Shown here: piece after piece, positions 3,936-8,776 of the stretch
Position numbering within the stretch: position 1 is the first letter of the stretch
How the letters are laid out: each line of letters begins with the position of its first letter
Source: a virus
Reading direction: 5' to 3' (one strand)
IMG/VR virus record: IMGVR_UViG_3300000115_000186
Location: 1-24,425 of that record
DNA length: 24,425 bases
Made by a program: the position numbers and the translations under genes
Notes under the pieces: model-generated
The model's input: only the letters and a program-made list of their open reading frames with translations
Told to the model about the DNA's origin: nothing
Databases searched by the model: none

Positions 3936-3975
3936 GCACTATTTGCATTATTTTAAAAAAAAGTTACAAAGATTT

Positions 3976-4422
3976 ATGATCGTAACCTTAAACCAAGTAG
4001 AAATAGAAGTTTCTGGACAGCCAATAGGCAAGGGCAGGCCAAGGTTTACCAAGGCAGGTCACGCATATACTCCGACTAAAACTAGAGAATATGAAAAACG
4101 CATACAGGCTGCAGCTTGGTCTAAAATGCAAGAAATGAAACTTAAACCAACAGGTAGGTTTTGTCATGTAAAAGTTGTAGCTTTCATGGACATACCGCAA
4201 TCGTGGCCTAAAGTAAAAAGATTAGAAGCAGAGTATGGCGTTTTAAAACCTATTGCTAAACCTGATTTAGATAACATTGTGAAGATTGCCAAAGACGGTA
4301 TTAGTGGCATGGATGGTATTATTCTGGATGATAAACAGGTTACAAGTATCGAAGCGCAAAAGGTTTTTTGCCATCCAGAAAAAGGGCCAGTGCTTTATAT
4401 CTCCGTATCTTGGACTGAATAA
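3976..4422 (+). CDS. rusA: RusA-family Holliday junction resolvase
   Basis: 148 aa from the ATG at 3976; a TTG at 3943 in frame would add 11 residues with no better ribosome-binding site. Typical RusA features: GQPIGKGRPRFTKAG near residues 15-28 followed by YTPTKTREYE, and the catalytic segment KPDLDNIVKIAKDGISG (residues 96-111) with Asp97 and Asp99, plus Asp118/Asp119 in DDKQV. It should work as a dimer that resolves four-way junctions made by phage recombination. It is the only rightward gene between 1.1 and 7.3 kb, and its last 28 nt overlap the end of the convergent Ref-like nuclease gene. Confidence 0.9.
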   Translation: MIVTLNQVEIEVSGQPIGKGRPRFTKAGHAYTPTKTREYEKRIQAAAWSKMQEMKLKPTGRFCHVKVVAFMDIPQSWPKVKRLEAEYGVLKPIAKPDLDNIVKIAKDGISGMDGIILDDKQVTSIEAQKVFCHPEKGPVLYISVSWTE

Positions 4423-7376: not shown

Positions 7377-7556
7377 ATGGAAACAATGCTGACGTTAAAA
7401 GATGTGCAGGTTTTATTGAAAGATGAACGCCCTGCAGATGTATGCAGTAAGACAGGCTTATCGCGTCACACTGTATACAGAATTAGAGATGGAGTATTTG
7501 ATGATGTTAAATATACAACAGTAAAAGCTTTGTCAGATTATTTTAAATATGATTAA
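7377..7556 (+). CDS. Cro-like helix-turn-helix regulator
   Basis: 59 aa, AAGGA ribosome-binding site 9 nt before the ATG. XRE/Cro-type fold: a first helix (LKDVQVLLKD), then PADVCSKTG-LSRHTVYRIRDG (residues 19-39) as the helix-turn-helix, with SRHTVYR as recognition helix, then TTVKALSDYF as the closing helix. It is the first gene of the rightward replication operon and faces the leftward recombination operon, so it is placed like lambda cro and probably represses one or both promoters between. No CI-like partner with a peptidase domain is present in the window. Confidence 0.8.
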   Translation: METMLTLKDVQVLLKDERPADVCSKTGLSRHTVYRIRDGVFDDVKYTTVKALSDYFKYD

Positions 7557-7563
7557 ATAAAAA

Positions 7564-7587
7564 GACCCCCTACCGAAGCAGAGGGTC
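7564..7587 (+). other. Hairpin in the leader of the initiator gene
   Basis: GACCCCCT and AGAGGGTC pair around a short loop (one internal mismatch), 8 nt after the cro-like stop. It is followed by AATCTAAAG with no T-tract, so it is not a standard terminator; it may partly attenuate transcription into the initiator gene or stabilise the short upstream message. Confidence 0.35.
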
Positions 7588-7638: not shown

Positions 7639-8322
7639 ATGTCGCATTATATGACAGCATTAGCTATGAAGCAAACTAATTTAAAGCCTGCCACTAAAAT
7701 AGTTTTATATTGGATTGCAGACCACCATAACGGAGAAACAGGTGAATGTTTCCCAAGCATAAACCGACTTGCAAATTTATGTGAGATGTCAAGACGATCT
7801 GTAGAGACACATATAGTTACTTTAGAACACGCAGGTTTATTAGAAAGAAAAGCACAATACAGGGAAACAGGCGGTAAAACAACTAATAGCTACATATTAG
7901 AACTTACTGGATCTCCTTGGAACTCAGACGATGCGCAAAATCTGCGTATGGGTAGCGCAATATCTGCGCATGGGGATACGCAAAATCTGCGTATGAATAA
8001 CCTTGTAATAAATAACCTTGGAAATAAACCTAATAATATAGATCAATTATTTGATGAATTTTGGAGTTATTATCCAAGAAAGATAAACAAGATGGCAGCA
8101 AAGCAATCGTTTATGACTGCTATCAATAAAGCTAAACCAGATGTTATTATTGATGGCATCAAAGCATACGCAGAAAGTATTAAACATTTTTGCAATCAGG
8201 ATATGAAGTTTATTCCACATGCTAGAACATGGTTACGACAAGAGCGATGGACAAATGAAGTAGAATTAGCAACAGTTAACATTCAAGACAGAGTTTTGCA
8301 GGAGATGATGAATGAGAAATGA
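7639..8322 (+). CDS. Replication initiator, lambda-O-like, with origin inside the gene
   Basis: 227 aa. Two domains: an N-terminal winged helix (HTH_36 type; LKPATKIVLYWIADH, then ECFPSINRLANLCEMSRRSV and LEHAGLLER, residues 15-70), and a C-terminal replisome-organiser segment (IDQLFDEFWSYYPRKINKMA at 134-153, FIPHARTWLRQERW at 191-204), typical of phage O-type proteins. The linker (about 96-133) is polar and contains QNLRM twice because it is encoded by origin iterons at 7931-7994. The winged helix should bind the iterons, the C-terminal domain should recruit helicase or its loader. RBS AAAGGA; stop overlaps the next gene by 11 nt. Confidence 0.85.
   Translation: MSHYMTALAMKQTNLKPATKIVLYWIADHHNGETGECFPSINRLANLCEMSRRSVETHIVTLEHAGLLERKAQYRETGGKTTNSYILELTGSPWNSDDAQNLRMGSAISAHGDTQNLRMNNLVINNLGNKPNNIDQLFDEFWSYYPRKINKMAAKQSFMTAINKAKPDVIIDGIKAYAESIKHFCNQDMKFIPHARTWLRQERWTNEVELATVNIQDRVLQEMMNEK
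7931..7994. repeat. Three palindromic iterons (initiator-binding sites)
   Basis: Three 19-bp repeats start at 7931, 7953 and 7976 (22 and 23 bp apart, about two helical turns). The third is a perfect palindrome, ATACGCA-AAATC-TGCGTAT; the first (ATGCGCAAAATCTGCGTAT) and second (TAGCGCAATATCTGCGCAT) differ at a few positions. Equal phasing on one DNA face is the arrangement of lambda and plasmid iterons. Confidence 0.85.
7931..8040. other. Predicted replication origin: iterons plus AT-rich unwinding tract
   Basis: Directly right of the iterons lies a strongly AT-rich tract (7995-8064) with AATAACCTTG repeated exactly at 7996-8005 and 8011-8020 and a variant AATAAACCTA at 8023-8032. Iterons followed on one side by an AT-rich repeat tract, all inside an O-like gene, is the lambda ori design. 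Strand opening at 7995-8060 is inferred. Confidence 0.75.
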
Positions 8323-8776
8323 AGAGTTAAAAGAAATGTTCTTATCAATGTTAGGACGTTTAAATGCACCTAGATCAATTACAAACAACAGTGAGGGCAT
8401 GAAGAAGGAAGCTGAGATACTTACAAATGTTATTATCAAGAACGCTCCCACAAGAGGCTATAAGGATTGGTTTAATGATTTCGAAGAGGCACTGTTAGGA
8501 AATTTAGAAACCAGAACATGGCCTACAATAAAAGAGATGCACAAAGCAGCAAAGCAAATATCAACAAGACGTCCTGAGTTTCGTGACTTAACAGGTGATG
8601 ACAAATATACTCCTGATCCATTTAAAATAAACGCAGCAAGAATAAAACGTGGCGAACCAGTAGATGAGCATTACATAAATGGAACTGAAGCGCAAAAGCT
8701 TTTGAACAAGGGGTTAGTTACTGAGGCAGATATACAACCTTATAAAGAAGCGTTGACGGCTGTTCATAATTATTAA
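8312..8776 (+). CDS. Replication protein in the lambda-P position (possible helicase loader)
   Basis: 154 aa, starting 11 nt inside the end of the initiator gene. No Walker A motif. Helical N-terminal half: ELKEMFLSMLGRL, then GMKKEAEILTNVIIKN and KDWFNDFEEALLG, then TRTWPTIKEMHKAAKQIS, a W-P-T-x-x-E segment as seen in non-ATPase helicase loaders and primosome proteins. C-terminal half is polar. Position right after an O-like initiator suggests it delivers host DnaB to the origin, which is inference; a recognised family is not evident. Ends just before the terminator/packaging-region gap. Confidence 0.62.
   Translation: MRNEELKEMFLSMLGRLNAPRSITNNSEGMKKEAEILTNVIIKNAPTRGYKDWFNDFEEALLGNLETRTWPTIKEMHKAAKQISTRRPEFRDLTGDDKYTPDPFKINAARIKRGEPVDEHYINGTEAQKLLNKGLVTEADIQPYKEALTAVHNY

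Follow-up and report, generated by a model that had tools for sequence, protein, structure and literature searches.

The window analysed here is a virus record of 24,425 bp, a fragment of a phage genome whose nearest terminase matches are marine phages, e.g., Methylophilales phage Venkman and Pelagibacter phages. Left of ~7.3 kb, the window contains leftward early genes (SSB, NinB/Orf-like, and HNH nuclease). A small Cro-type gene lies to the right, then the initiator gene and another small gene, with the terminase and structural genes after them (Table 1). The Cro/CI-type gene lies upstream of the initiator gene and is divergent from the leftward early genes. Between it and the initiator gene, just upstream of the latter, sits a terminator-like hairpin that may mark a short antisense or leftward RNA. 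Most relatives have a leftward hairpin, followed by a T run and diverged in sequence, in the corresponding position, and rightward ones are rare. The oop terminator of lambda is leftward and lies just upstream of the initiator gene, and the window's hairpin is placed like it. A promoter scan for rightward transcription across the region discussed below returned no more sites than shuffled sequences did. Further left, a RusA-type resolvase gene (3943–4422), 99% identical in the longer relative L004, lies on the plus strand amid the otherwise leftward early region.

Table 1. Features of the window around the initiator gene (positions are those of the whole window).
Feature	Position	Strand	Sequence	Remarks
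Small Cro/CI-type HTH gene	7377..7556	+		HTH_26 weak, E 2e-4; PHROG repressor families, E 6e-5
Terminator-like hairpin	7564..7587	-		Leftward; 10-bp stem, T run after
Initiator gene	7639..8322	+		227 aa: N-terminal winged helix (HTH_36), linker 92–131, helical C-terminal domain
Putative minimal origin	7921..8034			Codons 95–132; extent by frozen synonymous codons
Iteron 1	7931..7949		ATGCGCAAAATCTGCGTAT	Dyad centre 7940; aligns with palindromes in 41 relatives
Iteron 2	7953..7971		TAGCGCAATATCTGCGCAT	Dyad centre 7962; reading frame differs from iterons 1 and 3
Iteron 3	7976..7994		ATACGCAAAATCTGCGTAT	Dyad centre 7985; perfect 7-bp arms around AAATC
AACC repeat element	7996..8031	+		AACC at 7999, 8014, and 8027; starts the AT-rich presumed unwinding element
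AT-rich tract	7996..8060			80% AT versus 61% for the window
Downstream gene	8312..8776	+		Overlaps initiator gene; candidate helicase loader by position (place of lambda P)

The initiator is an HTH_36/PHROG_270 phage replication initiator: it matches PF13730 (HTH_36) with an E value of 1.6e-15 (57 bits against a cut-off of 25) and, over residues 1–216, the PHROG_270 replication initiation protein with an E value of 2.1e-42. Its AlphaFold2 model, with a pTM of only 0.40, places the recognition helix at residues 52–65 and gives the linker a pLDDT below 50. Foldseek listed many winged helices for it, including the initiators 4pql, 4pt7, and 5kbj and DnaD-N 2v79. The original prediction had described the initiator as O-like. 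Neither the window protein nor the relatives scanned matched PF04492 (Phage_rep_O), which lambda O itself matches at 5.7e-36, and hhalign (A1 against lambda O) gave a probability of 6% over 15 columns. Homology to lambda O was rejected on these grounds, and what stands of that description is that the site appears to work like the lambda origin.

The codons for the disordered linker, 290 bp into the coding sequence, contain three 19-bp palindromes whose starts are separated by 22 and then 23 bp, as found by direct reading and by a repeat search. Iteron 2 is less regular than iterons 1 and 3. The best three-copy score in the gene was 49 of 57, compared to 37 at the next best place in the window. 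Synonymous shuffles of the gene scored at most 42 (none of 1000 reached the real score) and 1000 codon-order shuffles at most 40. Matches to the iteron with three or fewer mismatches occur at these three places only in the 24,425 bp, with 0.06 expected. Adjoining iteron 3, the AT-rich tract carries two copies of AATAACCTTG (7996 and 8011) and, at 8023, the variant AATAAACCTA. Ranked by stability, its weakest 50-mer falls in the bottom 0.12% of the window. These features lie exactly where they had been predicted: three iterons, not the four of lambda, the third of them a perfect palindrome, next to an AT-rich tract with its own repeats. AACC-type matches taken alone, with two mismatches allowed, were weakly enriched in the window (16 versus 9.2 expected), and support for the AACC element comes instead from its fixed position, frozen codons, and distant relatives.

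Repeats within a gene could arise as a by-product of selection on the encoded peptide, here the linker (DAQNLRM ... DTQNLRM, NNLVINNLG), and iterons 1 and 3 do share a frame and encode similar peptides, with the NL motif kept in the alignment. But the 22 + 23 bp spacing puts iteron 2 in another frame, indicating that a repeated peptide cannot be the cause. In addition, the linker is predicted to be disordered, synonymous shuffles never reproduced the pattern, synonymous codons are frozen, as described next, and some relatives encode NQG in place of NLG yet keep AACC and GG. We give this explanation almost no credence.

Searches of viral contigs and genomes produced a family of 108 distinct genes starting MSHYMTALAM or near. 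Constraint and geometry were assessed in 41 relatives with <85% protein identity, chosen as protein-divergent and not as independent lineages. Where relatives share a residue, codon identity was about that expected from codon usage along most of the gene, with scattered smaller excesses (n = 41). Over much of codons 95–132, which hold the iterons and AACC repeats and nearly coincide with the linker, synonymous codon identity was close to 1 (n = 41). Synonymous codons are nearly fixed at codons 120–130; codon 121 is AAC in 41/41 relatives and codon 126 is AAC in 39/41. These frozen codons are the strongest single evidence pointing to selection on the DNA itself. A constrained Ser codon at position 40 (AGC) is isolated and best explained by the two separate sets of Ser codons.

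The geometry of the site is also conserved. A palindromic triplet lies at the same place in all 41 relatives, scoring 68–106 versus at most 58 in a control stretch, with spacings of 22 + 23 bp in 37 relatives, 23 + 23 in three, and 21 + 24 in one. The spacers between iterons in relatives are often runs of C or G. In 34/41 relatives the first AACC starts at a distance of 14 nt from the iteron 3 centre, and the second is 15 nt beyond the first in 35/41. The original prediction of an iteron origin inside the initiator gene is thus supported both by the constraint, which falls mainly at the iterons and AT-rich repeats, and by the shared three-palindrome layout.

Two other functions could be proposed for such a site. 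The iterons could be operators through which the winged-helix protein controls transcription of its own gene, with the origin elsewhere; many winged helices of the same fold class are transcription regulators, and the sites do lie in the protein's own gene. They lie 290 bp inside the coding sequence, however, not at a promoter, and the AACC and AT-rich element is constrained as strongly as the iterons, whereas a roadblock operator needs no such element. The best family match is also to phage replication initiators. We consider autoregulation alone very unlikely, although it could coexist with an origin function at the same sites. Alternatively, the site could serve a plasmid-like prophage in partition, as a centromere, or in incompatibility, and not be where replication starts. 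Initiator iterons commonly mediate incompatibility, as established for iteron plasmids, and the window proteins that were searched included no recognised integrase. But parA and parB were not recognised near the site, and an AT-rich, unstable tract kept at a fixed spacing fits unwinding, making this explanation very unlikely indeed. We conclude that the site is very probably a phage replication origin, located within the linker-coding part of its own initiator gene and working as the lambda origin does.

GC skew, which had been expected to switch near 7.95 kb, was dropped as evidence for the origin. Its switch in sign, near 7.35 kb, is caused by the reversal of gene direction at that point; the skew follows the coding strand, with plus-strand genes on either side of the site at +0.155 and +0.144. 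The cumulative curves of two longer relatives reach their minimum away from the site.

The iteron arms vary between groups of relatives, mostly as palindromes and with several copies changing at once. We grouped the recognition helices into classes by residues about 51–58 and read the half-site as the right arm outward. Helix SRRxVExH occurs with half-site TGCG, SKRxVQxH with TGCC or TGCA, APRSIHSH with TGCA, TDRxVRxH with TTCC, TDRDVRRQ with GTCC, DRxT(I/V)IRH with GCGAC, TRQSVITH with TTTTACA, and TRQSIINQ with TTTTGACA; SATSVKNH was paired by eye with GGGCAAAATCCGCC, as automatic centring failed there. Recognition-helix distance correlated with half-site distance (Mantel r = 0.75), compared to r = 0.01 for the C-terminal domain. 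After controlling for the C domain and for the remaining part of the N domain, the partial Mantel r was 0.71 (p = 0.0005, the floor of 2000 permutations, in which relatives are treated as exchangeable and the tree is not modelled). The residues best associated with the half-site (53, 56, 51, and 54) are on the modelled recognition helix or just before it.

Several pairs of genes differ in this respect while being nearly identical at their ends. L077 and L209 have identical C domains and first 40 residues that are 92% identical, but residues 41–95 are 49% identical and the iterons are TGCG versus TTCC. Across this pair and two others (L054/L047 and L026/L044), C domains are 91–100% and first 40 residues 92–98% identical, whereas helices and iterons differ. 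The converse also occurs, with C domains 13–16% identical and yet the same iteron arms. The helix and iterons are thus swapped jointly, as a block, among genes that are 90–100% identical at their ends. Shared ancestry could account for part of the covariation, since the helix and iterons lie ~120 bp from each other and move together; the partial test lowers this concern, as does the fact that the three copies change in concert, but neither removes it. We therefore regard the covariation as strong but not final. The repeats do change together with the winged-helix sequence in relatives, as had been anticipated. The related proposal that the encoded protein binds its own gene here is strengthened by this covariation, from which we infer the binding itself.

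Homologues of the downstream gene come after the initiator gene in most relatives. The model of its 154-aa product is helical and confident (pLDDT 88), and no convincing Pfam or PHROG match to it was found. Comparison with residues 37–117 of lambda P in the DnaB complex (9oa1_Y) gave a weak match (Z 7.8) tied with unrelated folds (AAA lid domains), and sequence comparison with lambda P returned nothing. Homology to lambda P is thus unsupported by sequence, and the structural match is weak and tied; from position and this match, our guess is that the gene may encode a helicase loader. The ORFs searched in L004 gave structural functions, with three of those ten lacking any match. No helicase, primase, or polymerase was recognised among them, which fits dependence on the host. 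Some relatives (L047, L050–L056, and L195–L203) have the same N domain and origin but another, DnaT-like C-terminal domain, whose match to DnaT is below threshold, and another downstream gene. This second type of C domain suggests that the module on the helicase side, too, can be exchanged, the exchange occurring at the end of the origin. In L011, L012, and L017, the initiator gene is followed directly by a 281-aa reading frame starting MTNPYILPEGNVRINFSGGRTSGYML that is unlike the usual downstream gene.

HTH_36 phage initiators are widespread, and we examined distant ones from phages of Vibrio, Escherichia, Salmonella, Klebsiella, Stenotrophomonas, Arthrobacter, and Pseudanabaena, and from prophages. 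Most of these genes contain in-gene repeats, and the 22 + 23 bp spacing recurs in several (L326, L330, L364, and L407). In the 75 nt 3' of the repeats, the most enriched 4-mer was AACC, in all three reading frames: it occurred 37 times versus 4.7 expected in the same genes and 20.3 (maximum 28) in synonymous shuffles, a test that is partly circular because the motif had been noticed beforehand in about a dozen of those genes. Among prophage genes fetched after this test, L413, L415, L398, and L407 show AACC, and L401 and L402 show it weakly or not at all. In the gene of the 523-aa prophage protein L402, a 22/23-bp repeat occurs in the linker far more than three times. The iteron finder returned no convincing triplets in some distant genes (e.g., L327–L329, L350, L352, L365–L367, L408, L409, and L411), indicating that not every match to these profiles has the layout, and no AACC turned up 3' of the repeats of L329 and L345. 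Taken together, the sequences suggest that AACC repeats next to the iterons are a common element. The literature searched held nothing specific on an HTH_36 initiator origin with such a layout or on an AACC unwinding motif.

These observations led us to a broader proposal that we find plausible but would not yet call probable: HTH_36 initiator genes in phages of Proteobacteria, Actinobacteria, and a cyanobacterium may share one kind of portable origin, with palindromic iterons commonly spaced 22 + 23 bp and AACC as a common unwinding or strand-capture element. The helix and iterons would travel as an interchangeable unit of specificity, with selection driving its diversification; the cause may be escape from replicon interference by co-infecting phages or satellites, which is speculation on our part.

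From the repeats within the gene, the DNA-level constraint, the fixed geometry, the helix covariation, and the block exchange seen in the aligned sequences, we infer how the origin of the window might fire, with replication starting at 7.95 kb. Dimers of the HTH_36 winged-helix protein would bind the three palindromic iterons via the recognition helix (residues 51–56), building a nucleoprotein complex on the 5' side of the AT-rich tract. Torsion would then open the tract, which carries the AACC repeats at a fixed distance from iteron 3, and one of its strands would be held. The C-terminal domain of the initiator, and probably the product of the next gene, would bring in the host DnaB helicase. 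The relatives offer a natural experiment: eight or more helix classes are paired with cognate palindromes, and in several nearly identical genes the helix-plus-iteron block is the main difference. Initiator-origin specificity is thus directly testable by swaps. Origins in many uncharacterised phages could also be located from sequence alone.

Origins inside initiator genes have long been known, and the basic finding is an ordinary one for a specialist. In the repABC plasmids of Alphaproteobacteria, oriV lies inside repC near an AT-rich region (PMC3155836), as in the window, but repC of p42d has no iterons, the main feature of the window. Membership of the window in this RepC group was rejected, as iterons are present and the RP-C domain appears in some relatives only, below cut-off. 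The N-terminal domain of the staphylococcal pSK41 Rep protein (RepA_N) binds repeated boxes central in its own gene, and its origin encodes the inter-domain linker (PMC5703833). The window shares this placement of the origin in linker codons, but pSK41 is a plasmid, not a phage, and the window has long-armed palindromes, the AACC element, and an initiator without a RepA_N match (PF06970 is absent from its Pfam matches up to E 0.1).

The PHROG_270, PHROG_391, and PHROG_8540 initiators (of ST64B, mEp460, Vibrio D65, and Klebsiella and Arthrobacter phages) have the same HTH_36 domain and, in most cases, in-gene repeats spaced at ~21–24 bp, followed by AACC-containing repeats. Their iteron sequences differ from those of the window, and in the enteric members AACC falls mostly in Glu-Pro codons (GAA CC), with 12 + 17 nt spacing. 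Lambda and Stx phage origins share with the window iterons of 18–19 bp with inverted arms and an A-rich centre in the middle of the initiator gene, and an AT-rich tract 3' of them (PMC5043065, PMC7466680); in lambda, the tract and adjacent iterons suffice for opening (PMC7466680; PMC5043065). A second small gene directly follows the initiator gene in both lambda and the window. The initiators belong to different families, Phage_rep_O and HTH_36, and the lambda AT-rich region lacks AACC repeats. The window has three iterons at 22 + 23 bp, whereas lambda has four at 20, 24, and 23 bp and Stx phages have six (PMC7466680); iteron number thus varies among known members, and four iterons are not strictly defining. 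New relative to the lambda and RepA_N models are the AACC repeats beside iterons in most distant HTH_36 initiator genes examined, in differing reading frames, and a natural table of helix-to-site specificities; together with the natural swaps and the exactness of the geometry, these lift the finding above its basic form.
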